Shown here piece after piece: positions 5,587 through 21,369 of a DNA stretch of 36,590 nucleotides. The DNA is from a virus. Location of the stretch: positions 1 through 36,590 of the IMG/VR virus record IMGVR_UViG_3300042291_001101. One strand, written 5' to 3'. Each line of letters opens with the position of its first letter. The stretch's first letter is position 1. The notes beneath the pieces were generated by a model. The model was not told where the DNA came from, did not search any database, and saw nothing but the letters and a program-made list of their open reading frames with translations. A program made the translations under genes and the position numbers.

Positions 5587-5711
5587 CGACCCTAAGGCTC
5601 ATGGCATGGTTCATGGCAAGCCGGCTGGCTCGACATACATACCACGGGTGGCTCTTGTGGATCGTTCATGGGGTGGGGTCAGCCGGCCCTTTTACACGGG
5701 GCTAAACGCAA
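5587..5711 (+). other. Intergenic gap with CATGG repeats and dyad
   Basis: This is a 125-base gap in an otherwise tightly packed operon. It has four CATGG words (5600, 5605, 5612, 5667). GCCGGCTG (5620-5627) is complementary to CAGCCGGC (5680-5687), which is followed by CCTTTTAC. It may act as a weak terminator or a processing site ahead of the first copy of the late motif. No gene is seen. Confidence 0.5.
5691..5709 (+). promoter_or_regulatory. Late motif copy 1 (most diverged)
   Basis: TTTACA-CGG-GGCTAAACGC has two mismatches to the consensus TTGACANNNGGCTAAACCC. It ends 2 bases before the ATG of the gpW-like gene and comes right after the 125-base gap. Confidence 0.75.
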
Positions 5712-5978
5712 ATGGCACGACCCCAAGGTATCTTCCTTATTTTCGACATTTGCGACATCCTTGAGATCGTCGCCAAGGCGAAGGAACTCCTGAAGCAGGG
5801 TAAGACCATGATGGAATACTCCGATTCCGGCACCAATGTCGTGAAGGAGTTCCCGATGGATATCTCCACCGTCTTGGTGGAATGCCGCTACGCGCTGATG
5901 GTCAAAGACCCCCAGACCTACGGCTCCATCGACCGTGTCCGGGTCATCAATATGCTCAATAATTTCCGAGGACTCTGA
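5712..5978 (+). CDS. Probable gpW-like head-tail connector, 88 aa
   Basis: It lies between large terminase and portal, exactly where lambda W sits. The 88-residue product has a first helix containing ILEIVAKAKELLKQGKTMME, a short strand pair around YSDSGTNVVKEFPMD and a second helix with VECRYALMVKDP. This matches the helix-hairpin-helix layout of gpW, which closes the portal pore after packaging. Identity cannot be judged by eye, so the call rests on order, size and predicted layout. The start is fixed by the late motif, which ends 2 bases upstream. It ends in a TGATG overlap with the portal gene. Confidence 0.65.
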   Translation: MARPQGIFLIFDICDILEIVAKAKELLKQGKTMMEYSDSGTNVVKEFPMDISTVLVECRYALMVKDPQTYGSIDRVRVINMLNNFRGL

Positions 5979-7570
5979 TGCGACCCAAAAAGCCGAGCAA
6001 GCCTGCTATCCCGCAGGCCAAGAAACCCAAGACGCCCAAGCGAGCCGATGTGACGGTGCCGCAGAAGCAGGCGTCGGGAGGCGGCTCCGGCCCGGGCATC
6101 TTCTCCAATTTCGAGTCGGCGAAGTTCAGCAACAAGCGTTCTTGGATTTGGTCGTCTTGGCCGCAGGACTTCAAGAAGACCATGACGGTCTTCGACCGCA
6201 TGGAGACCACGCGCAAGATGCGCTGGTTGGAGTTGAACGCCGGCCTGATCCGTCAGGTGCTGTCGGACATGGCCCTCTACACGGTCGGGGCTGGCATCAA
6301 GCCCCAGTCCCAGTCTGGCGACGAGATGTGGGACGACGCCGCCGAAATTTACTTCAAGCAATGGGCTTCCCGCGCTTGCGACATCACTGGCCGTTTCTCG
6401 TTCTTTGAACTCCAGCACATCTGCTGCCGCCTGATGGATCGTGACGGCGAGTGCTTCATCATCAAGACCCGTGGCCCCGGCGGAGAACCCCGTCTTCAGG
6501 TCATCGAGAGCCACCGTGTCGGCAACTCGTCGAACAACGAAGTGCCTCCGGGCATGGTGGACGGCATTCAGTTTGGCCCCTACGGTCAGCCCATCTTCTA
6601 CAACGTCATCCGTTCCGACGGCTCCAGCCGCCTGGTGCCGGCCAATGCCGTGATGCATCTCTACGAACCCGAGCTGGCCTCGGGTGCGCGAGCCTACAGC
6701 CCCCTCCAGCACTCGATCAACAACTTGGTCGATATGCTGGAAATCCTGTCCCTCGAAAAACTCGCCGTGAAGACGGCGTCGGACATCACTCGCACGATCA
6801 CCCGTGAGAATCCGAACTTCGACGGCACCCAGTCCGACTTTGAAGCCTTCGGCATGAAGCCGCAGGACTACGGCGACGGCATGACCGACCCGAGCGAGGC
6901 TTCGACCTTCCTCGGCGGCAAGGTGCTGGCCCTCGCCCCAGGCGAACGCCTGGAGTCCTTTGAGTCGAACCGCCCGAACAAGACCTTCGACGGATTCATC
7001 GAACACCTTGAGCGTGATTCTCTCGCAGGGATGCTCCCCTACGAATTCAGCGCGAACCCGACCAAGGCCGGCGGCGCGGTCATGCGTTTCGTGGTGGCCA
7101 AGGCCGACCGCAAATTCTCGCATCGTCAGCAGGTGATGATCCAGCGTTTCCTCACCCCCGTCTGGGGCTACGTCATCGGCTGTGCCATCAAGGACGGCTT
7201 CCTCCGCTCGACCGAGTATTGGACGAACGTCACTTGGACGACGCCCCGCCGTGTCACCGTCGACGCCGGTCGTGACGCGCAGCAGAACCGCATGGACATC
7301 GAGTCCGGCCTCAAGAGCCTTACGGACAACTACCTTGAAGAGGGCCTCGACCCGAAGGAGAAGATGCGCGAGAACGCCGCCGAGAAACGATACCTTCTCG
7401 ACCTGTCCAAGGAGTTCGACGTCCCGCTGTCGATGCTCTACAAGCCGCAGAACGTCGCCCCCGCCGACATCAACGCATCCGTCGCCGACGACGAGGTCAA
7501 GATGGACGACGGTGCGAAGATCGTCGAAGACGACGTCGACCCTGACGACGAAGAAACCTTCAAAAAATAA
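5978..7570 (+). CDS. Portal protein, lambda gpB family
   Basis: The portal forms the dodecameric ring through which DNA enters the head. The 530-aa product has the lambda-type portal pattern: a basic, proline-rich N-terminus (about 1-35), then the core from about 60 with RKMRWLELNAGLIRQVLSDM and GAGIKPQSQSG. The segment LMDRDGECFIIK and the surrounding ADAVMHLY-like region (NAVMHLYEPE) follow, and the C-terminal tail is acidic (DDVDPDDEE). Length matches gpB (533 aa). It overlaps the gpW-like gene by TGATG and is followed 3 bases later by the S49 protease, as in lambda B-C. Confidence 0.92.
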   Translation: MRPKKPSKPAIPQAKKPKTPKRADVTVPQKQASGGGSGPGIFSNFESAKFSNKRSWIWSSWPQDFKKTMTVFDRMETTRKMRWLELNAGLIRQVLSDMALYTVGAGIKPQSQSGDEMWDDAAEIYFKQWASRACDITGRFSFFELQHICCRLMDRDGECFIIKTRGPGGEPRLQVIESHRVGNSSNNEVPPGMVDGIQFGPYGQPIFYNVIRSDGSSRLVPANAVMHLYEPELASGARAYSPLQHSINNLVDMLEILSLEKLAVKTASDITRTITRENPNFDGTQSDFEAFGMKPQDYGDGMTDPSEASTFLGGKVLALAPGERLESFESNRPNKTFDGFIEHLERDSLAGMLPYEFSANPTKAGGAVMRFVVAKADRKFSHRQQVMIQRFLTPVWGYVIGCAIKDGFLRSTEYWTNVTWTTPRRVTVDAGRDAQQNRMDIESGLKSLTDNYLEEGLDPKEKMRENAAEKRYLLDLSKEFDVPLSMLYKPQNVAPADINASVADDEVKMDDGAKIVEDDVDPDDEETFKK

Positions 7571-7573
7571 TCC

Positions 7574-8653
7574 ATGTATTCCCTTTCCAACGCTTTCAAG
7601 ACCTTCTCGCCGATTCTAATCGAGCCGACGAAGGCCAAGGCTTACCTCGATAAGGTGGCCGAAATCTCCCCCGCCGACATCAAGGGCAACGGGGATATCG
7701 AGGACATGATGGAGATGCTCTTTGGCCCACGTCCGATGCTCGTCAAGAGCGGCGAGCTGGCAATCATCCCCGTCAAGGGAGTCATCGGTTCCGGCCTTAC
7801 GGAACTCGAAAAGATGATGGGCGCGGTCGACGTCGATGACGTCGAAGAGATGTTGGAGGAAGCCGAGCGTGACCCCGGCGTCGAGCATATCATCTTTGAC
7901 TTCGACTCGCCTGGCGGAACTGTCACCGGCGTTCCCGAACTCGCCGAACGCATCCGCAAGTGCAAGAAGCACACCATCGGCTACACCTGCAAGCAGTCCT
8001 GCTCCGCAGCCATGTGGCTGATGAGCCAATGCGATGAGACCTACGCCAGCCCGTCGGCCACCGTCGGCAGCATCGGCGTCTACATTCCGTTCTACGACAT
8101 GAAGGCGGCTTTCGCCGAAGACGGCATCACCGTCGACCTGATCAAGTCAGGCTGGGCCAAGGGAGCTGGTTTCGCCGGAACCTCCCTCACCCCCGAACAG
8201 CGTAAACTCTTCCAAGACGACTGCGACGAGTCCCACGCCTGGTTCATTTCCGACATCCTCAAGGTTCGCACCTACGCCGACCCCATTGATATGCAGGGTC
8301 AATGCTGGACGGGCAAGAAAGCCGCCGAGAAGAACCTCATCTCTGGCCTGATGAACACCCTTGACGATGTCCTGATGGCCATCGACCCCGAGGAATACGC
8401 CATTTACGAACGCGCCGAAAAACAGGTGCCTTCGACCGGCCCCGCCGGCTACGCCCAGGCCGCCGATGTCTCTCCCGAGCAGGGCGAGAAAGACGACGGC
8501 GTCGCTCCGATCTCCGACGACAAGAAGAAGAAAAAGAAGAAAAAGAAGAAGCCCGACGGCACGGACTCGGATGAAGACGAAGATGAGGACGAAGCCGAGA
8601 TTCCCGACGACGGATGCCCCCCTGTGGACACCGACTGCAAGCCCAAGGCTTGA
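7574..8653 (+). CDS. S49 (SppA/gpC-type) capsid maturation protease
   Basis: This serine protease cuts scaffold and/or portal during head maturation. The S49 core is clear: SPGGTVTGVPELAERI at about residues 112-127, the nucleophile Ser144 in QSCSAAMWL, and the probable general base Lys196 in KSGWAKGAGF. GSIGVY lies between them. After the catalytic domain the C-terminus becomes low-complexity: ten lysines in a row, then DSDEDEDEDEAEIPDD. The lysine tract is encoded by an A-rich run (8521-8551) that could provoke ribosome slippage. The stop codon lies inside late motif copy 2, immediately before the scaffold gene. Lambda makes its scaffold from inside C; here it is a separate gene. Confidence 0.92.
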   Translation: MYSLSNAFKTFSPILIEPTKAKAYLDKVAEISPADIKGNGDIEDMMEMLFGPRPMLVKSGELAIIPVKGVIGSGLTELEKMMGAVDVDDVEEMLEEAERDPGVEHIIFDFDSPGGTVTGVPELAERIRKCKKHTIGYTCKQSCSAAMWLMSQCDETYASPSATVGSIGVYIPFYDMKAAFAEDGITVDLIKSGWAKGAGFAGTSLTPEQRKLFQDDCDESHAWFISDILKVRTYADPIDMQGQCWTGKKAAEKNLISGLMNTLDDVLMAIDPEEYAIYERAEKQVPSTGPAGYAQAADVSPEQGEKDDGVAPISDDKKKKKKKKKKPDGTDSDEDEDEDEAEIPDDGCPPVDTDCKPKA

Positions 8654-8668
8654 CACTTGGCTAAACCC
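8650..8668 (+). promoter_or_regulatory. Late motif copy 2
   Basis: TTGACA-CTT-GGCTAAACCC is an exact consensus match. The stop codon TGA of the protease gene is embedded in it, and the scaffold ATG follows 3 bases later. Confidence 0.85.
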
Positions 8669-8671
8669 AAG

Positions 8672-9133
8672 ATGACGCTCGAAGAACGCCTTAACTCGCT
8701 GAAGGAAGCCTTCACCGGCAAGACCGCTGAGGTCGAAGCCAAGGCCAGCGAAGTTGCCTCCCTGTCCGCTAAGGTGGACGAACTGACCGCTGCGATGTCC
8801 GCTAAGGACGCTTCGCTCGCCGAGTTCACCGCCAAGGTCGAAGACCTCACCGCCAAGCTCGCCGCCGCCGATGAACTTCGTGCGAAGGCCGAAGCCCAGG
8901 CGAAGGAAATCCACGCCTCTCAGGAAACCGCTGGCAAGAAGGCCGCTGCTATCGCCGCCTCCGTCGGCGTCTCCCCCCTTGAAGTCACCCCCGCCGAAGT
9001 CGCCGCTACCTCCAAGAGCGACGAGGATATCTCCGCCGAGTGGGTGGCCCTCAAGCAGAAGGACGGCAAAGCCGCCTCTGATTTCTACAGCAAGAACCGT
9101 CCGGCCATCCTCCGCGCCGCCGGCCTTCGCTGA
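8672..9133 (+). CDS. Probable capsid scaffold protein, 153 aa
   Basis: Scaffold proteins organise the procapsid and are removed by the protease encoded upstream. The product is a long, alanine/lysine/glutamate-rich coiled coil (about residues 1-95, with many LxxK and LTAK repeats such as SLSAKVDELTAAMSAKDASL). A short C-terminal helical domain follows (SDFYSKNRPAILRAAGLR), basic as expected for coat-protein contact. The ATG at 8672 is preferred over a TTG at 8657 because the TTG lies inside the late motif. Position between protease and major capsid protein supports the call; lambda Nu3 and similar scaffolds have the same composition. Confidence 0.8.
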   Translation: MTLEERLNSLKEAFTGKTAEVEAKASEVASLSAKVDELTAAMSAKDASLAEFTAKVEDLTAKLAAADELRAKAEAQAKEIHASQETAGKKAAAIAASVGVSPLEVTPAEVAATSKSDEDISAEWVALKQKDGKAASDFYSKNRPAILRAAGLR

Positions 9134-9168
9134 TCCTTTCCCTCTCCAACCCAAACTAACTCCCTACT

Positions 9169-10083
9169 ATGTCTAACAGCATTGGTGGCTTGACCCTCCA
9201 GCTCGTCGCTGAAGAGTCCCTCCGCACCCTCGTCCCCGAACTCGTTCCCCTGACCGAGATCGCCGTCACCGACTTCGGCAACTACGTCGCCGAGCGCGGC
9301 ACCACGGTTCACACCCGTTACGCCGACTCCTTCACGGCCACGACCTTCAACCCGGCCAACGGTTTCGTCCCCGCCGACGCTAACTCGACGGACGTCCCCG
9401 TGACCATCGCCGACCTGAAGTATGTCGACGTCGCCTTCACCGACTACGAAGCCTCCACCCTCAGCCTGGAACGCCTCCGTCGCCTCTTCTTCGCCCCGAT
9501 TGCCAACGCCGTCCAGAAGTCCCTGTTCGACGAAGTCCTCTCCAAGGTGACCGCCGCTAACTTCGCCAACGCTGCTTACTCCGGCTCCACCGCTGGTTTC
9601 AACCGCATCGCCGTTGCGAACGCCGCCAAGAACCTCACCAAGGCCAACCTGCCTCACATGAACCGTAAGCTCCTGCTCTCGCCGGACGCTCTCGGCCAGC
9701 TCGTTCAGGATGCGTCTGTCGCCCAGACCTTCTCCTACGGTAACAGCGATGTGATCCAGAAGAACGCCATCAGCAAGGAACTCCACGGCTTCAGCGTCTC
9801 TGAGTACAACGGCTTCCCGACCTCTGGTACGCCCTTCACCGAAGGTCTCAACGGTGTGGCCTCCTGCAAGGAAGGTCTCGTCATCGTGACCCGTGTTCCT
9901 GCTACCCCGACCACCGGCGGTGGCGAACAGATGGTCGTTCAGGACCCGGACAGCAAGTTCTCCTTCGCTCTCCGCTACTGGTACAACTGGCAGGCCGGTA
10001 AGCACAATATGTCGGCCCTCTGGCTCGTTGGTTCTGCGGTCGGTAACCCGAACGCCCTCCAGCGCATCGCCTTCACCTCGTAA
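9169..10083 (+). CDS. Major capsid protein
   Basis: This 304-residue protein is the expected HK97-fold coat. It has an N-terminal arm, a helix with SLERLRRLFFAPIANAVQKS near residues 104-123 (spine-helix-like), a mid-region with LLSPDALGQLVQDASVAQ, and a beta-rich C-terminus ending FALRYWYNWQAGKHNMSALW. The family resembles P22/major-capsid-like coats of lambda-type packaging modules. Codon use is extremely uniform (GCC, GTC, CTC, AAC), as in highly expressed genes. A strong intrinsic terminator follows at 10126-10163. No Shine-Dalgarno sequence precedes the ATG (CTAACTCCCTACTATG). Confidence 0.9.
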   Translation: MSNSIGGLTLQLVAEESLRTLVPELVPLTEIAVTDFGNYVAERGTTVHTRYADSFTATTFNPANGFVPADANSTDVPVTIADLKYVDVAFTDYEASTLSLERLRRLFFAPIANAVQKSLFDEVLSKVTAANFANAAYSGSTAGFNRIAVANAAKNLTKANLPHMNRKLLLSPDALGQLVQDASVAQTFSYGNSDVIQKNAISKELHGFSVSEYNGFPTSGTPFTEGLNGVASCKEGLVIVTRVPATPTTGGGEQMVVQDPDSKFSFALRYWYNWQAGKHNMSALWLVGSAVGNPNALQRIAFTS

Positions 10084-10088
10084 GTTTC

Positions 10089-10108
10089 GGGGGAGTTTAA
10101 AATCCCCC
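10089..10108 (+). terminator. Small hairpin after the capsid gene
   Basis: GGGGGA (10089-10094) pairs with TCCCCC (10103-10108) around GTTTAAAA, 6 bases after the capsid stop codon. It has no T-run of its own. It may protect the capsid mRNA 3' end or assist the stronger terminator just downstream. Confidence 0.5.
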
Positions 10109-10125
10109 AAAGCGACAATGCGAAG

Positions 10126-10163
10126 CCCTCTCCCCGCGCCACGGGGGGAGGGTTTCTTATTTT
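10126..10163 (+). terminator. Strong intrinsic terminator after the major capsid gene
   Basis: CCCTCTCCCCG (10126-10136) pairs with CGGGGGGAGGG (10142-10152) over 11 bp with one T-G pair and a 5-base loop, then comes TTTCTTATTTT. The last Ts of the tract are also the first bases of late motif copy 3. Transcription therefore probably ends here and restarts for the tail genes. Confidence 0.9.
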
Positions 10164-10180
10164 GACAATGGGCTAAACCC
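10162..10180 (+). promoter_or_regulatory. Late motif copy 3
   Basis: TTGACA-ATG-GGCTAAACCC is an exact consensus match placed directly after an intrinsic terminator. The start codon of the next gene follows with no spacer (10181), so a promoter firing at the end of this motif would make a leaderless mRNA. Confidence 0.88.
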
Positions 10181-10519
10181 ATGTCGGGAATCACGGACGA
10201 ATGGGCTGTAGACGCCTCGGAAATCCTTTCCGAGATTCCTAAGGCCGTGACCGTTAAAAACGTCCCAGGCGGGACGCCAGTAGCCTTAAACGCGCTGATG
10301 TCGCAGCCGGCCATCATGCAGGACTTGGAAACGGGGGGCTTTATGAACCAGACCTCGTTCGACATGAAGTTCCTGCGGACGGACGCTGCCGCCAATCCGG
10401 GGCTGATCGCCTTCGGGAACGTGGTGGCCTATGGGGGTCAGGAGTTCCGCATTATGACCGTGACCGACCGCACCCCCTCCGCCTGGGTCATCGTCAAAGT
10501 CCAGACCAAGGTTCAGTAA
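10181..10519 (+). CDS. Probable head-completion / head-tail joining protein, 112 aa
   Basis: No signature motif is visible. The product has a short helical N-terminus (MSGITDEWAVDASEILSEIP) and a beta-rich remainder with FGNVVAYGGQEFRIMTVTDR, a layout common in stopper or gpFII-like proteins that close the filled head and dock the tail. It follows the capsid gene and precedes a gpZ-like gene, matching the lambda order E-FII-Z. The start is set by the abutting late motif. It ends in a TAATG overlap with the next gene, indicating coupling. Confidence 0.55.
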   Translation: MSGITDEWAVDASEILSEIPKAVTVKNVPGGTPVALNALMSQPAIMQDLETGGFMNQTSFDMKFLRTDAAANPGLIAFGNVVAYGGQEFRIMTVTDRTPSAWVIVKVQTKVQ

Positions 10520-11478
10520 TGGCCTTAGTGGTCACAGTCGCCAAGGGCGTCAAAGTGGATTACACGCAGATGGCGAAGCATCTGGCCATTTATGCCTTGG
10601 TCATGCGTAAGACTTCCGAGGAAATCGTGAAGCAGCAGGCGCGGTTGTTCGCCAAAGATATGTGCGATTTTACGCCGCCTTTCTCCGGCTCCCAGCCCTC
10701 TATCACCAAGGGAGGCGATGGAGGTTTTGGCAACAAAGCTCGTAATAAGGGAAGGGACGCCGTCAGCCGTGACGTCCGTAAGATTTTCGCCCCCCTGCAC
10801 TTCGCTTCCGCCGCTTCTGTTGCAGCGCGTAATCATATCGGCGTATTCTCGGCTTGGGCTAGGGCCAAGATGAAACTTCCGCAGGTATCTGACCCGGGGT
10901 ATATCTTCCAGATGATCAAAGACCGAGGTGGTATCATCGGCCAAGGTGAACTTGATTATTTTATCAGGATCATGGGCAATAAGGCCGCATCTAACGCCAA
11001 GTTCCTTCTTGGAACTACTGAAGGTAGGATTAAAAATATCCATGAAAGCCTGCGTGGTAAGCCTTCTTACAAGGTTTCAAAGATGCGTGATTCCGAGAAG
11101 TTCTATGTTGACGATTGGAAGCCTGTTGAGTCCTACATCAAGCGGGTGCAGCAGCGCGTCGGTAAACTCAAGTCCGGCTGGTATTACGCCGGCCTAAAAC
11201 TCGGCAGGATGCCAACCTCCGCCTGGGTTATGAACCAAGGTGCAGGTACCTCTATTTATGTTCCGCGCCTTGGCACCGCCCACCCTACCATCAAGCTCGG
11301 CTCAACCGTAGGCCGTAACTACAGCCAAGGCTACCACTTTATGCGTATGGCCATGAACCACCGCGCCTTTGCGATGCGGGTGGCCATCCTCAAGCATTTG
11401 CAAGCCCCGCGCAACCACGGTAAGTTGATAGATGTAATCAACCGCCTGAAGGGCTTCAATTTAACCAATACACCCTGA
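10519..11478 (+). CDS. Probable minor tail / neck protein (gpZ-like)
   Basis: The 319-aa basic, mixed alpha/beta protein begins MALVVTVAKGVKVDYTQMAK and contains a helical segment (LVMRKTSEEIVKQQARLFAK), DFTPPFSG and long lysine/arginine-rich stretches. DFTPPFSG followed by glycine-rich linkers is typical of HK97 gp10/gpZ-type neck proteins, which help join head and tail. The order (after the stopper, before the tail terminator) supports this. Base composition is slightly more AT-rich in 10890-11260 than in flanking genes. A TGATG overlap links it to the next gene. Confidence 0.6.
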   Translation: MALVVTVAKGVKVDYTQMAKHLAIYALVMRKTSEEIVKQQARLFAKDMCDFTPPFSGSQPSITKGGDGGFGNKARNKGRDAVSRDVRKIFAPLHFASAASVAARNHIGVFSAWARAKMKLPQVSDPGYIFQMIKDRGGIIGQGELDYFIRIMGNKAASNAKFLLGTTEGRIKNIHESLRGKPSYKVSKMRDSEKFYVDDWKPVESYIKRVQQRVGKLKSGWYYAGLKLGRMPTSAWVMNQGAGTSIYVPRLGTAHPTIKLGSTVGRNYSQGYHFMRMAMNHRAFAMRVAILKHLQAPRNHGKLIDVINRLKGFNLTNTP

Positions 11479-11921
11479 TGCCCCCCCCTGCCTTCTTCAG
11501 TTTCCGTACCGTCCTTGAGAACAGGGTGGCCGGCTACCTTGAGCCGCTGTTCCCAGGCGTCGCCGTCCATAAGGGCGTGACCGACGAAATCCGGGTCATC
11601 CCGATCATCATCGCCCATGCCGAGTCCAGCAGCAACATCGACGACCTCGGCTCCAAGACCCTCGGCAACTACAAGGCGACCCTGAAACTATTCATCTACT
11701 CGTCCGCCGACGACGAGACGCTGGAAGTCCACCGCGCTAGGGTCGTGGAGGTCATCGGTGCCATGCGCGACGTGCCGGCCCTGAAAGCCCTTTGGAACCC
11801 CTCCACGGACGGCCAGTTGTACGACCTGTGGATTGAGAACGACGAGGAAGGCATGAGCCAGCGACGCTACGGCAACGTGCTGGAATATACCGTCTGGGGC
11901 GTCATGCCCCCGTCCCCTTGA
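11478..11921 (+). CDS. Probable tail terminator (gpU-like), 147 aa
   Basis: Tail terminators cap the tube and form the docking ring to the head. The product starts with a helix (FRTVLENRVAGYLEPLFPGV) and then alternates strands and helices. It includes NYKATLKLFIYSSADDETLE followed by a helix VHRARVVEVIGAMRDVPALK, and ends in a strand (GNVLEYTVWGVMP). This is the alpha/beta layout of gpU-like proteins, and the 147-aa length is close to theirs (about 130). It is coupled to the gpZ-like gene (TGATG). Its TGA stop lies inside late motif copy 4. Confidence 0.6.
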   Translation: MPPPAFFSFRTVLENRVAGYLEPLFPGVAVHKGVTDEIRVIPIIIAHAESSSNIDDLGSKTLGNYKATLKLFIYSSADDETLEVHRARVVEVIGAMRDVPALKALWNPSTDGQLYDLWIENDEEGMSQRRYGNVLEYTVWGVMPPSP

Positions 11922-11936
11922 CACTTGGCTAAACCC
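11918..11936 (+). promoter_or_regulatory. Late motif copy 4
   Basis: TTGACA-CTT-GGCTAAACCC is identical over 19 bases to copy 2. As there, the upstream gene's TGA stop is embedded in TTGACA. The next ATG (11945) is 8 bases downstream. Confidence 0.87.
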
Positions 11937-11944
11937 ATACGACT

Positions 11945-12274
11945 ATGGCAATCGATTACGGCGTAGCACACTTTTACGGACTCTATGGCACGGTCACCTA
12001 TGCGACCCTCCAGTCCGACTCTCTCTCCCAGAGCTTCAAGATTGACGTCGAAGTCATGGACGAAGAAGGCCGTGTCATCACCGACCGCCTGGACGATATC
12101 TATCAGGAAATCACCCTTGAGGGTGTCCTCAAGGACGGAACGACCCCGGAAATCGGCACCCAGTTCACCTACCTCGGTATTCAATGGATTCTGAAGTCCC
12201 TTGAAGACAAGGGTACGAACAAGGACTTCCGCAAGGTCACCGTAAAGGGCGTTAAGTACTCGCAGATCGCCTAA
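11945..12274 (+). CDS. Small beta-rich tail protein (tube candidate), 109 aa
   Basis: The position corresponds to lambda V, the tail tube. The product is short and strand-rich: SDSLSQSFKIDVEVMDEEGR, DDIYQEITLEGVLKDGTTPE, then FTYLGIQWILKSLEDK and a final strand KVTVKGVKY. Such alternation fits a single tube-type beta domain, but 109 aa is short for a tube protein (usually 140-250). It has its own late motif, consistent with a need for high expression. A different tail-tube candidate is the 311-aa protein at 14071. Confidence 0.5.
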   Translation: MAIDYGVAHFYGLYGTVTYATLQSDSLSQSFKIDVEVMDEEGRVITDRLDDIYQEITLEGVLKDGTTPEIGTQFTYLGIQWILKSLEDKGTNKDFRKVTVKGVKYSQIA

Positions 12275-12290
12275 TAGGGCGGCATCCACG

Positions 12291-12884: not shown

Positions 12885-12889
12885 CACCG

Positions 12890-14071: not shown

Positions 14072-15006
14072 TGGCTTCCCCTACACGAATCGGATACGGT
14101 AACAACCTGATTAACCCTATCGCCCAGCCCGGGTGGCAGGTTGAGTCGGACGGATTCGGCCTTATCCAGGCTCAAGTCAAGTTCAAGTGGACGAACAGCC
14201 AACTCCCCGGATTCACGAACACGTTCGCCAAAGGAACCACGTTTCAAAGCCTAGTCGGAGTGATTACGCCGAGCAGCCTAGCACAGCTCAAACTTTGGAA
14301 GGCCAATTATGTTTATGAAAAGGCGGACGTCGTAACCGTTACGGCAGATTTCTGTGGCATCGATCCTAATGTAAATAGCGGACAGTTCAGCAATATGCAG
14401 ATGGTAATGACTGGTGCCACCGCATCAGAACCCATCGAGCATCACCCTAACTTCCTCGTAAGGAACTGCATTTCAATCTCGCCTGGTAATGTGCTTGCCG
14501 GATTCCCTTCTGCTTCTGGCTGGGATCCTAATGTTGCCACTAATCCTAACCGCGCACTATGGACCCCCAAGGTAGCCAATAATGGTGCAACCCAAGGCCA
14601 GCAGTTCGTGGGCTTCCTGCCCAACCAAGACCCAGCAGAGTACGCTGCCGGCAACATCAACATCAAGGCTGGCATCAAGAACTACTACAAGCCGTCCCTG
14701 ACGCTGCGCGGACTCTGGTACATGGCCAGCGAGGTCGCAGCCTTGGATATTGCTTCTTATGTCGGATATTGCACCGACGGAACCAGCATGGGTATGCCTG
14801 AGGCTTACCGAAAACTTGCTAAAGACAACGGTTACTCAGGCAACTTCCAGTACACGGCTTTATACGATTCCAAGATTAACCGAGGCTTCCTGATTACCTC
14901 CTGCTCGGTCGAGCAGTTCGGAGGAATTTACAAAGTCACGATGGATTTCACCATGTCTGGCATTTCCGGCTGGGATCCTGACGTTTACCCAACGATGGTC
15001 GCATGA
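14071..15006 (+). CDS. Tail protein, 311 aa, unknown type
   Basis: Not recognised as a named family. The product is beta-rich and aromatic, e.g. QVESDGFGLIQAQVKFKWTN and YVYEKADVVTVTADFCGIDP near the N-terminus, and a final strand pair FGGIYKVTMDFTMSGISGWD. It is coupled to the tape measure by TAATG and to the next gene by ATGA, so it is part of the tail operon. It could be a distal tail or a tube-like protein; the order after the tape measure favours a distal tail component. There are no enzyme motifs. Confidence 0.6.
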   Translation: MASPTRIGYGNNLINPIAQPGWQVESDGFGLIQAQVKFKWTNSQLPGFTNTFAKGTTFQSLVGVITPSSLAQLKLWKANYVYEKADVVTVTADFCGIDPNVNSGQFSNMQMVMTGATASEPIEHHPNFLVRNCISISPGNVLAGFPSASGWDPNVATNPNRALWTPKVANNGATQGQQFVGFLPNQDPAEYAAGNINIKAGIKNYYKPSLTLRGLWYMASEVAALDIASYVGYCTDGTSMGMPEAYRKLAKDNGYSGNFQYTALYDSKINRGFLITSCSVEQFGGIYKVTMDFTMSGISGWDPDVYPTMVA

Positions 15007-16556
15007 GGTCTCTGACTGGATTCAACAGCGGTTCTTTGGACGGATCGTTCGCGCCGGGTCAGCCGCTTTCAGCATCAAAGCTGAACCTGCTCGCTGGCTC
15101 TGCGGACAAGTCTCGTCCGATGATGTCGAACGATGTGCAGTTCATGTCTACGGGAGGAGGAGTGGCCTACGGCATTCCTAATCAAGTCTACCAGCAGGAC
15201 GGCAGCGGCGCGGCGGCTACGTTCTACCAGCAGTACCAGTTGGAGGTCGTTAGCATCGAGATCAGCCCAGGCGTCTTCGCCCAGAAACTCAAGCTGGCCA
15301 AAGGGACGGTCAACTTCACCCAGAGCAATATGCCCCGGGTACGCCTAGGTGGTCACAGCGACCAACGTCAGGCTTGGCTCTTCAAGACGGCTGTCCTAGG
15401 AACGGGCGTAACGGCTACGCAGGGTCTTGATACAGGCACCATCTGGATGGAGTCCAACGGTTATTATAACATCGGTTCGGCTGGCACCTATTACGTCACG
15501 ATCAGCAAGTTCGACATCAACCAGTCGAACGACGACACCGACTCCGCGCTGTTGAATGCCGAGGTTCCTTTCGTGTCCATCTTCAAGTCTGGAGACTCCA
15601 TCGAGAATACCATCTTCTCGGAGACCGGCCCGTCGGAGTACGTCAATAAGACGAATATGCATAAGATGACCGGCTACGACGCCACGTCGACCGGCCTTTC
15701 TGGCGACTGGGGCAACTGCCACACGACTTGGTTCAACCCGGTCAAGTGGGGATACTCGGTCAAACTCATCGGCATCGTGACTGCGGTATTAGACCCGACT
15801 TCTGGCGGTATCATACTTACCATCGACCAACACATCCTTGGCCCTATCGACCTCCAGATTCCGTGCCTGTTCAACGGAACAACTTTGTGCAATCAGGACG
15901 ATCTGAACGAGACCAACGACCCGTACAACCTGAATAAGAACACGGAGCCTAAGGCATGGGCTGATATCGTCAATTCCAATGACCTTAACGCTTTCGAGGA
16001 GATTACGCCAGTTACGGAAGAATGGTTCCAAGAATTCATCGGCCCCGCTGACTGGACTTCCTTGAACTACTCTTACCTCATCCCGGCGAGCTGCGCGAAT
16101 CAGGACGACAACGCCTGCGAGCATCCGTTCCAGTTCCACCCGTTCACCGTTGCCAGCGGGGAGAGTTTCCTCTTCCGTGCGAACGTCTGCTCGGGCATGG
16201 CCAACAACCTTGTGCCGCTTGATGAACCAGGCTCGGGGATGTTGCTCCCCGCTACCATCGACTTCCTCACGACGGGCGACACCTTCATCTACCTCCGCAT
16301 GGGAACGGAAGCGTATGCTTCCAACAACCCCATCTTCCCAGTCACGGACGTTACGGACGTGTACTACCCGACCATCGTCCAGTCCCCGACCGCCCTCACG
16401 GACACGGACGAGTATGCTTATATCCTCATGGGCATGGCGCGGAACGTCGGCGACCCCGATACCTTCACCGTCGACCAGACAATCTCCGGCTCTGTCTGGG
16501 CCGAGCGTCTTAAGATCGGCACGGACACCGCCCGTTACTACTGGGCGGGAGTCTGA
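15003..16556 (+). CDS. Tail tip / baseplate protein, 517 aa
   Basis: Not recognised as a named family. The N-terminus resembles structural proteins that place a peptide before a beta domain (SGSLDGSFAPGQPLSASKLN, LLAGSADKSRPMM). This 'LSASKLN' style opening is frequent in phage tail-fibre or tip subunits. The rest is beta-rich with many Asp/Asn/Thr, and there is no membrane segment. It overlaps its neighbours by ATGA and TGATG. The role is inferred from position, after the distal tail candidate and before the fibre genes. Confidence 0.55.
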   Translation: MRSLTGFNSGSLDGSFAPGQPLSASKLNLLAGSADKSRPMMSNDVQFMSTGGGVAYGIPNQVYQQDGSGAAATFYQQYQLEVVSIEISPGVFAQKLKLAKGTVNFTQSNMPRVRLGGHSDQRQAWLFKTAVLGTGVTATQGLDTGTIWMESNGYYNIGSAGTYYVTISKFDINQSNDDTDSALLNAEVPFVSIFKSGDSIENTIFSETGPSEYVNKTNMHKMTGYDATSTGLSGDWGNCHTTWFNPVKWGYSVKLIGIVTAVLDPTSGGIILTIDQHILGPIDLQIPCLFNGTTLCNQDDLNETNDPYNLNKNTEPKAWADIVNSNDLNAFEEITPVTEEWFQEFIGPADWTSLNYSYLIPASCANQDDNACEHPFQFHPFTVASGESFLFRANVCSGMANNLVPLDEPGSGMLLPATIDFLTTGDTFIYLRMGTEAYASNNPIFPVTDVTDVYYPTIVQSPTALTDTDEYAYILMGMARNVGDPDTFTVDQTISGSVWAERLKIGTDTARYYWAGV

Positions 16557-17038
16557 TGGCCTCCCGCATTGGCGGGCCAAAGGTAGGTGGGTTCAACCCA
16601 TCAGGGCCGACTTGGGGTTCGATGCGCTCTCCGCTTGTGCTTAACGCATTCACTTGGAACGCATCATATACAGAATTCTCAAGGCAATGGCCTTTGAGCG
16701 TAGCAAGTCCTCCTAAGTTCTTCAAATGGGATAGCGGCTCCCTATTCCGTCAAGATACATACGGCCCACCGCCATACTATACCATTTCCAATAACAGTCA
16801 GGAAGTACCAGAACCCCCTATCATTTATACCGGGTGGAGCATCGGAATCCAATACCCGAACAGGACGGTCGACAACCATGACTTCCTTCAGCTCATAGGG
16901 GAGGCATTGGATACGGACATTGGCACATTCATCATTACTGCGGACGCACATGATGTGAACCAAGGCGGACAGACCCTTTCCGATCAGCCCCCAGGCGGGA
17001 CTGAGATTTACGATATCGGCAAATTGACGGGGTTCTGA
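16556..17038 (+). CDS. Hypothetical tail-tip protein, 160 aa
   Basis: Not recognised. The product begins MASRIGGPKVGGFNPSGPTW; it is proline- and aromatic-rich in the first half and ends with QTLSDQPPGGTEIYDIGKLT. There are no catalytic or membrane features. It is coupled to the preceding 517-aa gene by TGATG, so the two may work as a pair at the tail tip. The gene ends 15 bases before late motif copy 5. Confidence 0.6.
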   Translation: MASRIGGPKVGGFNPSGPTWGSMRSPLVLNAFTWNASYTEFSRQWPLSVASPPKFFKWDSGSLFRQDTYGPPPYYTISNNSQEVPEPPIIYTGWSIGIQYPNRTVDNHDFLQLIGEALDTDIGTFIITADAHDVNQGGQTLSDQPPGGTEIYDIGKLTGF

Positions 17039-17053
17039 CCCTTTTAGGGGGTA

Positions 17054-17072
17054 TTGACATACGGCTAAACCC
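17054..17072 (+). promoter_or_regulatory. Late motif copy 5
   Basis: TTGACA-TAC-GGCTAAACCC is an exact consensus match in the 46-base gap before the fibre genes. The start codon (17085) is 12 bases downstream, the largest spacing of the six copies. Confidence 0.86.
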
Positions 17073-17084
17073 AAACGGCAAACC

Positions 17085-17411
17085 ATGTCTTGCACCCAAC
17101 ATCAGTTCAAGCAGGGGGTAACCTTCAACGGTGCCGGAACCTATACGACCGAACCAGGCTGGCCTGCCGACCTGACCGGGGTGACCATCGTCACCGCGCT
17201 GCGCGACGCCCGGAACAAGCTCTTCTACCTAGACGTGGCCATTACCAGCCCCACGACTTTCACCGTCTATTACAACCAGACGCAGGAATGGCACCCCGGG
17301 ACGGCCTACTGGGATATCAAGTTCTACGAGAACACGACCGAAATCTTCTACTCGGCCACCGTCCGCCTGGAGATTCTTCCCAACGTCACCCCTAACAAAG
17401 TTTCTAACTGA
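17085..17411 (+). CDS. Fibre-associated beta-sandwich protein, 108 aa
   Basis: This small all-beta protein lies immediately before the collagen fibre. The pattern is FKQGVTFNGAGTYTTEPGWP, DLTGVTIVTALRD, TSPTTFTVYYNQTQEWHPGT, AYWDIKFYENTTEIFYSATV. These 'dLTG ... W-x-x-G-x-YxxDI-x-F' elements are common in phage receptor-binding or fibre-attachment modules of the BppU-like kind. It probably anchors or caps the fibre. A TGATG overlap couples it to the fibre gene, and its own late motif (copy 5) lies upstream. Confidence 0.6.
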   Translation: MSCTQHQFKQGVTFNGAGTYTTEPGWPADLTGVTIVTALRDARNKLFYLDVAITSPTTFTVYYNQTQEWHPGTAYWDIKFYENTTEIFYSATVRLEILPNVTPNKVSN

Positions 17412-19537
17412 TGTCCTTCACGATCAGCATCAACGACCAAGCCGCCTTTGAAGTCCAGTTCGCTGGCCCCGCCGGCCCGACCGGCCCTCAAGGCCCACAG
17501 GGCATTCAGGGTATTCAAGGCGTGAAGGGCGACAAGGGTGACCAAGGCGATCAGGGTATTCAGGGTATCCAAGGCATTCAGGGTATTCAGGGTATCCAAG
17601 GTGATAAGGGTGATAAAGGTGACAAGGGCGACCAAGGTGACCAAGGCATCCAAGGCATCCAAGGCATTCAAGGCATTCAAGGTATCCAAGGTGACCAAGG
17701 CCCGAAAGGCGACAAGGGCGATCAGGGAGACCAAGGCCCGCAGGGCGATAAGGGAGACCAAGGCGATATTGGCCCTCAAGGCCCGCAGGGTGTCCCCGGA
17801 ACCTCTGGCATCGCTTTCGCCACCGCGCCGCTGGCTTACGACTCTGTCACCCAGACGGTCAGCATCAGCCCGAATCCGAACTTCGACTCTATCTCCATCG
17901 CTGCTGGGGGCTACGCCGGTTTATTCCAGAATCAAGTCTTCATCGGCGACGGCATCCTGACGAACTACTTGGACATGACTCAGGGTCTTGTCCTTCAGAA
18001 CGGTTCAATCACCTTCCCTGACTCCACGTCTCAGACGACGGCGTTCAATTCGTCAGTTCTGCTGCCCTACGCGCTGATCAACTCGCAGGTCTTCACGGGT
18101 ACGCCGAGCCTTCCGACTGGCACCATCGGCGTGACCCAGCCGACCCTGACGTCGTCGACCCAGCTCGCCACCACGGCCTTCGTCCAGCAGGAACTCGCCG
18201 CCGGCACCGCCGTGGCGAAGAACCTTGAAGTCCTTGTCCGTAACCAGTCCGGGGTGACCATTCCCGCCGGCTCCATCGTCTACATCTCGGGTGCCACGGG
18301 CAACCTTCCTCTTATCACGCTCGCCCAGGCGAACAACGATCAGAACTCTGCCCAGACGATGGGCTTCGTCAAGACGGCCATCGCTAACAACGGCACGGGC
18401 TTCGTCATCGTGCGCGGAATGCTGGAGAACATCAACACTTCTGGACTGACCGAAGGCGTCCAACTTTACCTGTCCCCGACGACCCCCGGAACGTGGACGA
18501 CCACGAAGCCCGTGGCTCCGCAGCACATGGTCTATGTGGGCATCGTCATCCGCTCGCACCCGACGCTCGGCACGATTCTGGTGGCCGTTCAAAACGGCTA
18601 CGAACTCGACGAACTCCATGACGTCCTCATCACGACCCCTTCGACGGGTCAGGTGCTGACCTACGACGGCGTGACTGGCCTTTGGAAGAACCAGGCCGCA
18701 GCCGGCGGTGCTGTCTGGGGCGGAATTACAGGGACTCTTTCCAGCCAGACTGACCTCCAGAACGCTTTGAACCTGAAGGCGAACCTCTCCGGGGCCACGT
18801 TCACGGGCAAGGTCAATATGGCCACGATTGCTGCCTCGACTCCGAGCATCAACCTCGGGGGTCAATGCGACTCGGCTCCCGCCAGCGCGGCCAACGGCGA
18901 TCTCTGGATTTCAAACGCTGCTTCCCCTAAAATCACCTATCGGACTGGCGGGATTAATTACAACGTTCCCGTCCTGAACCAGTTCAACACGTTCACGGGC
19001 CAGATGGTCATCAACACGACCTCGTCATCGACCGCTGCCCTGCGTGTCACTCAGCTCGGAACGGCAAACGCCATCGAAGTCGAGGACAGCACGTCCCCTG
19101 ACGCCACCCGTTTCGTCGTCGACGCCAACGGCAAGGTCGGCATCGGCGTCGCCCCGGATACGACCGCCGCGCTCAAGGTCGATACGAACGGCATCATGTT
19201 CGGCGACGGCACGACGCAGACCACGGCGGCAGTTCCGCCACCCCCTCCTTCGTATTCTGCCAACCAAGCAATTGCTGACATGATTACGGGGGCAATCTTT
19301 AACATCAGTACTGCACCGGGGCAGATGTTTATCGAGTTTAATGGAGTTTCCGCTTTCACTAAGACGAACTTTGGAAACGACGTGACAGTAAACGGCTCCA
19401 CATTTACTTGGAACCCGAATCCGTATGGAGCAACTTGGACTACTGAGGTTTATTTAAGTGACCCGCCACTTAGCGAATACTTTATTGCATACAAAGGAGC
19501 TGTAGCATCCCTGCCTTTCAAATCATTTGGCGTTTAA
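17411..19537 (+). CDS. Collagen-repeat tail fibre, 708 aa
   Basis: This is the probable receptor-binding fibre. Residues 1-18 form a short attachment segment. Residues 19-132 are 38 uninterrupted Gly-X-Y triplets, including two blocks of five GIQ and charged GDK/GDQ triplets; a trimeric collagen-like stalk is expected. After it come beta-rich shaft domains, with GxV-type repeats (VVDANGKVGIGVAPDTTAAL) and two 'DSTSQTTA / GDGTTQTTA' elements often seen in fibre shafts. The last 95 residues or so (from about 19255) have a different codon style (AT-rich third positions), suggesting an exchanged receptor-binding tip. No S74 chaperone domain is seen. Confidence 0.85.
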   Translation: MSFTISINDQAAFEVQFAGPAGPTGPQGPQGIQGIQGVKGDKGDQGDQGIQGIQGIQGIQGIQGDKGDKGDKGDQGDQGIQGIQGIQGIQGIQGDQGPKGDKGDQGDQGPQGDKGDQGDIGPQGPQGVPGTSGIAFATAPLAYDSVTQTVSISPNPNFDSISIAAGGYAGLFQNQVFIGDGILTNYLDMTQGLVLQNGSITFPDSTSQTTAFNSSVLLPYALINSQVFTGTPSLPTGTIGVTQPTLTSSTQLATTAFVQQELAAGTAVAKNLEVLVRNQSGVTIPAGSIVYISGATGNLPLITLAQANNDQNSAQTMGFVKTAIANNGTGFVIVRGMLENINTSGLTEGVQLYLSPTTPGTWTTTKPVAPQHMVYVGIVIRSHPTLGTILVAVQNGYELDELHDVLITTPSTGQVLTYDGVTGLWKNQAAAGGAVWGGITGTLSSQTDLQNALNLKANLSGATFTGKVNMATIAASTPSINLGGQCDSAPASAANGDLWISNAASPKITYRTGGINYNVPVLNQFNTFTGQMVINTTSSSTAALRVTQLGTANAIEVEDSTSPDATRFVVDANGKVGIGVAPDTTAALKVDTNGIMFGDGTTQTTAAVPPPPPSYSANQAIADMITGAIFNISTAPGQMFIEFNGVSAFTKTNFGNDVTVNGSTFTWNPNPYGATWTTEVYLSDPPLSEYFIAYKGAVASLPFKSFGV
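17465..17806 (+). repeat. Collagen-like triplet repeats in the fibre gene
   Basis: A 342-base tract encodes 38 Gly-X-Y triplets. The DNA alternates 9-base units such as GGTATTCAG and GGCATCCAA with GGTGACAAG and GGCGATCAG. Synonymous variation between units (GGC/GGT, ATC/ATT, CAA/CAG) shows the repeats are old or maintained against homogenisation. Repeat number is likely to vary between relatives. Confidence 0.9.
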
Positions 19538-19543
19538 TAACCT

Positions 19544-19684
19544 ATGACCTACCTAATCTGCATCGCAATCGGCTTCATCGCCGGCCTAATCACGGGTCTG
19601 CTCGTCATGCGGAAACACGCCGCCAAAGCCTCCGAGCTGGAGGCCAAGGGCAAGGCCGCTCTCGACGCGCTCAAGGGACGCTGA
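19544..19684 (+). CDS. Small membrane protein, 46 aa, lysis region
   Basis: One N-terminal transmembrane segment (TYLICIAIGFIAGLITGLLV, residues 2-21) is followed by a short charged helix (RKHAAKASELEAKGKAALDA) and LKGR. The start is 6 bases after the fibre stop and the stop is 3 bases before the lipoprotein gene. A membrane anchor plus short helix just ahead of a lipoprotein could be a holin-like or inner-membrane spanin component, but the tail is short for the latter. Codon use matches the late genes. Confidence 0.65.
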   Translation: MTYLICIAIGFIAGLITGLLVMRKHAAKASELEAKGKAALDALKGR

Positions 19685-19687
19685 CCT

Positions 19688-20425
19688 ATGCGGCTTCTTC
19701 TGGTCATCGCCTGGGTGGCATTGGCTGGTTGCAAGTCGTCCAAGCCCCTCGACGAGCCGCTGCCTAAGCAGCCCGACGCCCCGACCAAGCCGGACGTCGT
19801 ACAGAGCCTCGGCAAAGACCTAGACAAGACGGATCACCGGGTCGGTGCCGCCCTCGTCGCCATCGAGCGTAACGCAGACAAGCCCAAGGTGGTCGTCGCC
19901 GAGTCCCGTCTAGCCCAGTCTTACCTCCCCCCTCCCCCCGAGGCGGACGTCGCCTTCAGCATGGCTCGCGCAGCCAAGGGTAGCGAAATCGACTACGCCA
20001 AGCAGATGGCCTTCGGTCGCCAGCTCGCCACCGCCGTCAACAAGGCATGGGAGAAATTAGAAGCCGACCAATCTGAAGCCAAGAGGGTGTCCAATTTAAA
20101 GGATGTCCGTATCAAGGAACTCCAAGCCGAAATCGAACGGGTTAAGAAGGACGCCTCCGCCCAGACGTGGACGCTCGTCGGTGCCGGCCTCGCCGTCGTC
20201 GGTGCGTTGACCACCGCCTTCCTCGGCCCGAAAATCGGACTCCCCCTCCTCCTCTGCGGAGCCTTCTGCGGCGCGGTGCCGTTCATAATCGACAGCCCAT
20301 ATTTTGAGTACGCTGCCGGCGGAACCCTGATCATCGCCGCCGGCCTAGGGCTATGGTGGCTCGCCGACAAGGTACGGGATTCCGTACGCTCTAACGACCA
20401 TGACGAAACGCCGCCAAAAGAGTAA
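19688..20425 (+). CDS. Lipoprotein with C-terminal membrane segments (unimolecular spanin candidate)
   Basis: The N-terminus is a lipoprotein signal: MRLLLVIAWVALAGCKSSKP, with lipobox L-A-G-C and Cys15. A proline-rich linker follows (about 20-35), then a long helical or coiled-coil region (about 90-160, with LKDVRIKELQAEIERVKK), then hydrophobic segments at about 162-182, 186-204 and 212-228, and a charged tail. An outer-membrane lipid anchor plus an inner-membrane C-terminal segment joined by a helical periplasmic span is the layout of unimolecular spanins such as T1 gp11, though this protein is longer and has more hydrophobic segments. It sits in the lysis region, which supports the call. 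Confidence 0.55.
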   Translation: MRLLLVIAWVALAGCKSSKPLDEPLPKQPDAPTKPDVVQSLGKDLDKTDHRVGAALVAIERNADKPKVVVAESRLAQSYLPPPPEADVAFSMARAAKGSEIDYAKQMAFGRQLATAVNKAWEKLEADQSEAKRVSNLKDVRIKELQAEIERVKKDASAQTWTLVGAGLAVVGALTTAFLGPKIGLPLLLCGAFCGAVPFIIDSPYFEYAAGGTLIIAAGLGLWWLADKVRDSVRSNDHDETPPKE

Positions 20426-20684
20426 GGTCAAGTGGGTCAAGCTCGGTCGCCAGCGAGCCTGGGGTCAGGCTACCATCGGCGAAGGGCTGATTGAAATTGA
20501 CCCCCGCCTCGGTGCCAAGCGGCAGTTGGAAGTCCTCTGCCATGAGCAGATTCACCTGACCTTCCCAGAACTCTCGGAAGCCCAAGTCGACCGCGCAGGC
20601 AAAGACCTCGCCGACGTCCTTTGGAATCAGGACTACCGCCGTGTCCTGCTCGCCCCTAACGCCAAGCCCCCCAAGATTTCGTGA
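20400..20684 (+). CDS. Mini zinc-metallopeptidase-like protein (HExxH), 94 aa
   Basis: A compact protein with the zinc-binding motif HEQIH at residues 48-52 (VLCHEQIHLTFPELSEAQVD). Glutamates follow within 10 residues and could give the third ligand. A basic N-terminus (MTKRRQKSKVKWVK) precedes a short strand. The fold may be a minimal ImmA/SprT-like or other gluzincin domain; the family is not certain. It overlaps the lipoprotein gene by 26 bases in another frame, and its stop overlaps the next start (GTGA). The lysis-cassette position could mean cleavage of envelope or host proteins, but the substrate cannot be read. Confidence 0.65.
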   Translation: MTKRRQKSKVKWVKLGRQRAWGQATIGEGLIEIDPRLGAKRQLEVLCHEQIHLTFPELSEAQVDRAGKDLADVLWNQDYRRVLLAPNAKPPKIS

Positions 20685-21043
20685 GTGCGGCACCTCTCAA
20701 TCCCGACGACATCCCTAGGGAGGTCAAAGACGGCGTCATAGCGGGAGTCCTAGGGGGCTTGGCAATGGTGGCCAGACTTCTCCTCAGTACCGAGCCGGTC
20801 TCGCTGGGCTGGGTAATCCGTCGTGTCCTTGCCGCTGCGATCACCGCCGCCTTGGTTGGCTATTGCATCCAAGACCATATTCAAAACGCCGGCCTAAAAA
20901 TGGGCGTCGTGGGTGCCAGCGGCTATGCCGCGCCAGAATGTCTGGATTACCTGATGAGGTATATCAAGTCGAAGGGCGACGCCGAGGTAGGCGTCCCTAA
21001 AAAAGATGCCAAAAAAAGACCTGCCTCCAAGCGACGGAAGTGA
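20681..21043 (+). CDS. Probable holin (LydA-like), 120 aa
   Basis: The pattern GVIAGVLGGLAMVARLLLST - RRVLAAAITAALVGYCIQDH - GVVGASGYAAPECLDYLMRY matches the layout of LydA-type (holin superfamily III) proteins: three hydrophobic stretches, conserved glycines and a 'G-x-x-x-P-x-x-L-D-x-L' end. The C-terminus is very basic (PKKDAKKRPASKRRK), as holins often are. Holins form the timed membrane lesion for lysis. The GTG start is fixed by GTGA overlap with the HExxH gene. It overlaps the next gene by 38 bases. Confidence 0.65.
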   Translation: MSAAPLNPDDIPREVKDGVIAGVLGGLAMVARLLLSTEPVSLGWVIRRVLAAAITAALVGYCIQDHIQNAGLKMGVVGASGYAAPECLDYLMRYIKSKGDAEVGVPKKDAKKRPASKRRK

Positions 21044-21344
21044 GAGCAACCTGCTCTTCGCCGTCATCGGCCTGGTCGTCGCCGCCGGCCTCGCCGCAGC
21101 CATGTCGGCTTGGATCGCAGGCTTCGTCCTAGACCAGCTCCAGAACACCGACGCCCTCGTCATGCTGGTGACCGACGGGGGGCTGAAGTCAGACTCCAAG
21201 GACTTGGAGCGGAATATGTCCACCGCCACCCTCGCCCTTCAGTCCTGCCGGGACTTGGGCTGGGCTTTGGGCGTAGGCTGTCTGGGGGTCGGGTTGGCAG
21301 TAGTAGTCAGACTACGGAAGAAAACGCCGCCACGGGCTTCCTAG
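21006..21344 (+). CDS. Two-span membrane protein, last late gene, 112 aa
   Basis: Two hydrophobic segments are visible: LLFAVIGLVVAAGLAAAMSA (about 16-35, extending to AGFVL) and GWALGVGCLGVGLAVVVRLR (about 85-104). They flank a polar loop with charged residues (SDSKDLERNMSTATLALQSC). It overlaps the holin gene by 38 bases and ends the rightward operon. Pairs of overlapping small membrane proteins are common holin/antiholin arrangements, so this may be an antiholin or second holin; the sequence gives no proof. Confidence 0.6.
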   Translation: MPKKDLPPSDGSESNLLFAVIGLVVAAGLAAAMSAWIAGFVLDQLQNTDALVMLVTDGGLKSDSKDLERNMSTATLALQSCRDLGWALGVGCLGVGLAVVVRLRKKTPPRAS

Positions 21345-21350
21345 GTGGTA

Positions 21351-21369
21351 TTGACAGGGGGCTAAACCC
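21351..21369 (+). promoter_or_regulatory. Late motif copy 6, with no large gene downstream
   Basis: TTGACA-GGG-GGCTAAACCC is an exact consensus match, 6 bases after the last late gene. Downstream are only a 14-codon frame (21373-21417) with a hairpin and then the convergent early genes, so its product would be a short RNA or peptide, or an antisense transcript of the primase-helicase 3' end. Confidence 0.85.

Follow-up and report, generated by a model that had tools for sequence, protein, structure and literature searches.

In the cluster K mycobacteriophages, asymmetric 13-bp repeats named start-associated sequences (SAS) or ESAS lie immediately 5′ of start codons and mostly in one orientation; the SAS consensus, GGGATAGGAGCCC, contains GGAG, up to ~19 numbered sites occur in one genome, and the inverted-repeat consensus of ESAS differs between cluster K subclusters (PMC3203893). 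The late promoters of the giant phages AR9 (AACA-N6-T[A/G]) and phiKZ (TATG) are described as being read by phage multisubunit RNA polymerases (PMC5312081). Here we analyse a 20-bp element that recurs before late genes in viral DNA of 36,590 nt (IMG/VR record IMGVR_UViG_3300042291_001101, positions 1–36,590; hereafter the window). No description of this element was found in the open-access papers searched.

The reading that we favour, with a probability of about 0.72, is that the element acts as a self-contained late promoter, that RNA would start at or near the A at its position 20 (A20) to give near-leaderless mRNAs, and that the reader would be host RNA polymerase redirected by one or more phage proteins. 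How late genes are switched on in uncultured phage groups that lack a recognised polymerase is still largely a matter of guesswork.

Results

A 20-bp element stands before late genes of the window

With up to three mismatches allowed, the pattern TTGACANNNGGCTAAACCC matches the window at six places, all on the plus strand; five of these are exact and the first has two mismatches, in full agreement with an earlier sequence-only reading that had listed six 19-bp copies. The number expected is 0.29 (standard deviation 0.56, largest 2; 100 dinucleotide shuffles). A chance origin of the six copies was ruled out by these shuffles together with the reversed pattern, which occurs in eight stretches of the viral collection with a single match each. 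The base that follows the 19-mer is A at all six window copies, and the consensus is TTGACW-N3-GGCTA-N4-YA, 20 bp in length. From the end of the 19-mer to the ATG the distances at copies 1–6 are 2, 3, 0, 8, 12 and 3 nt, within the 0–12 bases given before. The copies and the two hairpins next to them are as follows.

5691..5710, plus strand: late element copy 1, TTTACACGGGGCTAAACGC followed by A; ATG 5712 lies 2 nt on; proposed +1 at 5710
8650..8669, plus strand: late element copy 2; ATG 8672 lies 3 nt on and opens the gene preceding the major capsid gene; proposed +1 at 8669
10162..10181, plus strand: late element copy 3; position 20 opens the ATG, so that the mRNA would be leaderless if +1 is 10181
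11918..11937, plus strand: late element copy 4; ATG 11945 lies 8 nt on; proposed +1 at 11937
17054..17073, plus strand: late element copy 5; ATG 17085 lies 12 nt on; proposed +1 at 17073
21351..21370, plus strand: late element copy 6, within an optional insert (~21345–21463) and followed by a hairpin; its 14-codon frame is not conserved
10122..10156, plus strand: terminator-like hairpin after the capsid gene, adjoining copy 3; 15-pair stem, tail TTATT
21375..21408, plus strand: hairpin after copy 6, GGCUCCCCCC..GGGGGAGUC; in relative G015 followed by TTCTTTT and terminator-like

The TGA of the upstream open reading frame (ORF) lies inside TTGACA at copies 2 and 4 (ORF ends 8653 and 11921), and one copy, the third, directly follows a strong terminator-like stem, both as previously noted. 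This stem is the longest in a scan of the window that overall yielded no excess of stems (24 vs 21.9 in shuffles); the hairpin that follows copy 6 does not stand out from shuffled sequence (z −1.61). Some gene assignments of the sequence-only reading need correction. For the labels gpW-like, head-completion and small tail protein there was no family support, the product of 5712 matching only DUF5442 (E 0.006) and those of 10181 and 11945 nothing. G015 does not preserve the 14-codon frame that follows copy 6; there the copy is followed by ATAACG, the hairpin and TTCTTTT, with no ATG. Copy 6 and its hairpin are carried by an insert of ~120 bp (~21345–21463), and clean junctions without it are seen in L031, L087 and L099. 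At copy 1, most lineages carry TTTAC in the orthologous site.

The element occurs mainly in one phage group and precedes the same genes

The exact 19-mer was found in at least 118 viral stretches. Among the 118 listed, 115 carry proteins of the same phage group, the exceptions without such proteins being L014, L052 and L110; the scatter over unrelated phages that had been named as grounds for abandoning the motif was thus looked for on viral contigs, with this outcome and the eight stretches of the reversed pattern. All 201 exact sites in the 115 group stretches are followed by A.

Relatives were gathered by two scans with capsid and terminase alignments, the best 80 of each being taken, and reach down to 51% identity in TerL. 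As far as their contigs extend, the element precedes the same five genes. The strict core is matched in 227 of 242 orthologous upstream stretches; the remaining 15 comprise eight with TAGAC/TGGAC, one with GTCTA, one with GCGTA, three with GGCAT, one mis-anchored (L248) and one from phage P8625. Patterns built on each genome's own core, chosen after its sites had been viewed, matched only the plus strand in 12 genomes or contigs, with five copies in ten, six in G000, four in the G010 fragment and none in reverse.

Copies change in concert between lineages

The right half of the element differs by lineage (CTAAAAAC, CTAATTCC, CTAGTTCC, CTAAAGGC, CTAAACTC, CTACAA, GGCCACA, GCGTTA and GGCAAATAGT) and is mostly uniform within each. 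This was examined with 66 sites from 15 hand-picked lineages, drawn from the 28 contigs tabulated. At columns 10–18, identity within genomes was 0.897 vs 0.663 when genome labels were shuffled within each gene, and at column 6 it was 0.99 vs 0.62; none of 2000 shuffles reached either value. Within-genome identity exceeds that of orthologous sites at columns 6 and 11–19, and column 3 follows the gene rather than the genome. The 20 bases 5′ of the element are at background, positions 21–22 are slightly raised, and later positions are not. L328, a lineage found later, has four copies, all ending GGCAAATAGTA. The element itself, its positions and boundaries, its concerted evolution and the copy 3 hairpin are direct observations. 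Concerted change, together with upstream flanks at background, argues for a self-contained 20-bp element read in trans.

Position 20 and the copy 3 hairpin point to a start of transcription

Position 20 is A in 223 of the 227 strict-core sites, and 221 of them have a pyrimidine (C or T) at position 19; pyrimidine-A resembles an initiation site, given bacterial start preferences. The A persists at 110 of the 113 sites whose leader measures at least 5 nt, and therefore is not due to the ATG alone. In G009 the sites are one base longer and the A stands at position 21. The ATG begins exactly at position 20 in 43 sites, and leaders in relatives extend up to 25 nt.

Copy 3 was located in 25 of the 28 contigs, many of these 25 being close relatives, and in all 25 a hairpin lies directly 5′ of it, with sequences changed and pairing kept. 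The mean stability of this hairpin is −26.6 kcal/mol over 40 nt, vs −6.3 to −11.3 upstream of the other four copies. Unless polymerase reads through this hairpin, transcription of the copy 3 unit would have to begin anew within or past the motif. An ordinary sigma-70 promoter was rejected, consistent with the sequence-only reading: no −10 hexamer occurs 17 nt past the window copies, and a start set by that spacing would fall inside the copy 3 gene. The start codons look right, since diverged relatives share the N-termini from these same ATGs on, so the RNA cannot start downstream as sigma-70 spacing demands.

Shine-Dalgarno-like 4-mers precede 3 of 24 plus-strand and 1 of 12 minus-strand genes examined. 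Replacement of the Shine-Dalgarno sequence by the motif was considered and set aside: genes with and without the motif look alike on this count, since most genes have no such site. A trans-acting antisense RNA was discarded, the right-half word having no reverse complement in six of seven genomes (the G009 8-mer has two).

The motif could instead belong to the 5′ untranslated region of a longer transcript, as an RNA-level signal bound by a phage RNA-binding protein or the ribosome, or as a cleavage site. Such a signal would suit the closeness to start codons, the single orientation and the scarcity of Shine-Dalgarno sites, and a role in translation initiation was considered by the cluster K authors for their start-associated sequences, with little support noted (PMC3203893). 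It sits poorly, however, with the hairpin that adjoins copy 3 in all 25 contigs, which leaves little room for a promoter between hairpin and motif, with copy 6 of G015, which has no ATG, and with the absence of the motif from most of the remaining genes without a Shine-Dalgarno sequence. We consider this explanation unlikely. The earlier proposal had left the choice between a contiguous promoter for a modified or phage-directed polymerase, giving near-leaderless mRNAs, and an RNA-level start signal; the former gains from the self-contained 20 bp, the concerted evolution, the A at the proposed +1 and the copy 3 hairpin, and the latter is weakened by copy 3 and by G015 copy 6.

Candidate readers of the element

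A 127-nt direct repeat at window positions 1–127 and 36464–36590 indicates a complete phage unit of 36,463 bp. No Pfam or PHROG match to RNA polymerase families was obtained in the scanned window ORFs, in line with the sequence-only reading, which had seen no single-subunit RNA polymerase gene, and no full sigma factor was recognised in the complete genome. Sigma region 2 (PF04542) matched in none of 10 genomes, the control matching in 11 of 14; a PF00940 search of 10 genomes was empty, the positive control being equally silent. Since the genome is complete and shows no recognised RNA polymerase of its own, host RNA polymerase, redirected, is the most likely reader. Two conserved proteins are candidates for the redirection.

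1922..2290, plus strand: candidate regulator, 122 aa; predicted winged helix, encoded upstream of the terminase genes in the part of the rightward block that has no motif copies
2562..3104, plus strand: candidate regulator, 180 aa; C-terminal helix-turn-helix weakly like sigma-70 region 4

Both proteins are present in nine of nine long relatives, G004 included, and the 2562 protein also weakly in G009. The structure predicted for the 1922 protein (pLDDT, the predicted local distance difference test, 86) gave winged-helix matches at Z ≤6.8, many of them unrelated. In the fold search with the 2562 protein, 35 of the 50 PDB rows listed are sigma-70 chains, many from the same few proteins, at Z ≤5.5. 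Of 11 genomes searched for sigma region 4 (PF04545), two (G001 and G003) gave matches below the cut-off, located within their 2562 homologues. A viral fold library gave eight matches to the 2562 protein at E ≤0.001, all from uncultured phages, seven uncharacterised and one named a Psq-type helix-turn-helix protein. A search for 2562 homologues returned 73 loci, of which 48 newly numbered stretches were scanned, many in contigs already covered. Among the 44 with at least 4.2 kb after the start of the homologue, 42 hold at least one site by a lax pattern; the two missed are L320, which has a GTCTA variant, and L333.

A hint of specificity comes from the lineages with a GGCA core (L230–232 with two sites; L328 with four), whose 2562 proteins have NRA.ISY.VKRIQ in common within the putative recognition helix. 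This sequence differs from that of the GGCTA lineages compared, and no compared protein places the two GGCA lineages nearest each other. Motif distance correlates with protein distance at 0.49–0.79 (Spearman) for 12 proteins in 26 contigs. The partial correlation given TerL (19 lineages; w1922, MCP and scaffold left out for missing members) is 0.35 for the helix-turn-helix segment, 0.22 for the whole 2562 protein, 0.44 for g5712, 0.58 for TerS and 0.60 for the portal protein.

An alternative sigma factor of the host might read the promoter alone, the right-half differences then mirroring different hosts. The lack of any phage sigma or RNA polymerase family match over the cut-off would fit this, as would a TTGAC that stays constant while the other box varies; with boxes 3 bp apart and a start at or before position 20, though, two-box sigma-70 geometry does not fit, and MCP and TerL searches against genome contigs found no relative that could point to a host. 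We judge it improbable, slightly more so than an RNA-level signal. A divergent phage RNA polymerase, single-subunit or split and N4-like, which profiles fail to see and which reads a T7-like contiguous promoter, is very improbable: single-subunit polymerase promoters do resemble the element in size and contiguity, but the conserved early ORFs of more than 200 aa in the 36,463-bp unit already have assignments (primase-helicase, helicase, phosphoesterase, kinase, exonuclease, SSB-like and RecT proteins), not every genome has Gp88 and the methylase, and PF00940 is empty in the 10 genomes, if with a silent control.

Genome layout and other features

The rightward genes of the window encode terminase, portal, protease, capsid, tape-measure and fibre proteins, and the leftward block primase-helicase, helicase, exonuclease, RecT, SSB-like, kinase and phosphoesterase proteins. 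Two further conserved early-block proteins look by eye like a RuvC-type resolvase (33287–33721; DPGASGGW) and a lysozyme-like transglycosylase (33718–34245; weak SLT match, E 0.055). Megablast of window 3000–22000 against named phages found no near relative and a single 43-bp match, and Rfam at gathering score found no family in the window. Terminal repeats of relatives measure 127 nt in G006 and 123 nt in G005. In the 39,330-bp record G004 (L263, L264), TerL starts close to both ends with slightly different sequences, which suggests a non-identical terminal overlap. G003 has a tRNA-like gene of uncertain anticodon at L261 14626–14722, close to where the late block ends.

Window 1777–1921, which separates the leftward from the rightward block, contains repeated CAACCACAGTAG and strong hairpins, with a minimum free energy of −51 kcal/mol over 112 nt in the window and −32 to −52 across nine genomes; by eye, pairing is kept despite sequence change in nearer relatives. 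The region may serve as an origin or as a structured leader, and it is overlapped by a sigma-70-like site, TTTACA-18-AATAAT, at 1837–1866.

Discussion

The comparative evidence makes a strong case for a promoter, whose activity, +1, leaderless translation and reader we infer from sequence. Under the favoured reading, the boxes TTGACW (−19 to −14) and GGCTA (−10 to −6), 3 bp apart, would be recognised in trans by a factor that varies between lineages in its specificity for the right box, and the 1922–2290 and/or 2562–3104 proteins would redirect host RNA polymerase to them. The rightward late region would consist of five plus-strand transcription units, each begun by one of five copies:

5710–8653, plus strand: proposed late transcription unit
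8669 to the hairpin near 10160, plus strand: proposed late transcription unit
10181–11921, plus strand: proposed late transcription unit
11937–17038, plus strand: proposed late transcription unit
17073–21344, plus strand: proposed late transcription unit

The sixth, optional copy would drive a short hairpin RNA only. RNA would begin at or very near A20, giving late mRNAs of the window phage leaders of 0–12 nt, which would suit a phage whose genes mostly have no Shine-Dalgarno sequence. We tentatively extend this, at less than even odds, to the view that the 1922–2290 and 2562–3104 pair could be a new kind of specificity factor for a compact promoter (boxes at about −19 and −10) with truly leaderless mRNAs, the recogniser and its five promoters having been rewritten together many times.

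Several observations weigh against the promoter reading and its proposed readers. The copy 3 hairpin of G010 has no T tail and follows a T-tailed stretch. Columns 7–9, which are nearly free, show a small within-genome excess (reached by 9 of 2000 shuffles), so part of the concerted signal may be shared base composition; G006 has four different suffixes among five copies, and L170 mixes GGCTA and GGCATA. Loose patterns yield one reverse match each in G009 and in 7 of the 48 newly scanned stretches with a 2562 homologue, and forward matches without a start at G003 612 and G004 14945. L333, with a distant, partial 2562 homologue, holds no motif in 5.4 kb, and L170, with one GGCATA site, has an ordinary helix, contrary to the hint that this protein is the recogniser. 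Because phylogeny swamps the correlation, motif and protein distances single out no regulator, 1922 and 2562 included; the link of these two proteins to the element is a lead drawn from conservation, position and weak fold hints (Z ≤5.5). No known polymerase reading such geometry was found in the open-access papers searched.

The natural variation over ~10 lineages amounts to a ready-made promoter swap, and pairing the promoters with the candidate regulators could reveal the recogniser. If the +1 lies as proposed, this Shine-Dalgarno-poor phage would also offer a natural collection of late mRNAs that have no leader or almost none.

The Verrucomicrobia phage P8625 (L125) is a distant relative of the window phage (TerL 24–28%, MCP 28–29%). 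Like the window phage, it has near-leaderless spacing with TTGACA, at three genes of its structural region; unlike the window element, its sites read TTGACA-N17-TATTGG/TATCTG-N7-ATG, with ordinary sigma-70 spacing. They stand at 5412, 10736 and 15558, two having inverted repeats GTATC..GATAC across the −10, and are possible leaderless sigma-70-type promoters. Homologues of the 1922 and 2562 proteins were absent at E ≤0.01 from the 24.6 kb of P8625 searched. The host of P8625 is a verrucomicrobium, a weak lead only toward that of the window phage.

The SAS of cluster K resemble the element in their position before starts and mostly single orientation, with a sequence unrelated to the window consensus (PMC3203893); in contrast to them, the window element reaches the proposed +1, changes in concert and abuts a hairpin at copy 3. 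The late promoters of AR9 and phiKZ are likewise short, end on the start base and have a consensus that differs strongly among related phages (PMC5312081). Those phages encode their own polymerase, whereas none was recognised in the 36.5-kb window phage, and AR9 leaders measure 26–491 nt (PMC5312081) vs the 0–12 nt proposed here. The T4 proteins gp55 and gp33 offer a parallel to the proposed logic, in which small phage proteins redirect host polymerase to a compact late promoter (PMC2988020); the T4 promoter differs from the window element in sequence and extent, the likeness lies in the proposed logic, no homology is known, and the window element is not known to depend on a clamp. Each of these systems is thus like the element in one respect and none is shown to be identical to it; as judged from its sequence, the element would be a new variant of phage late promoter.

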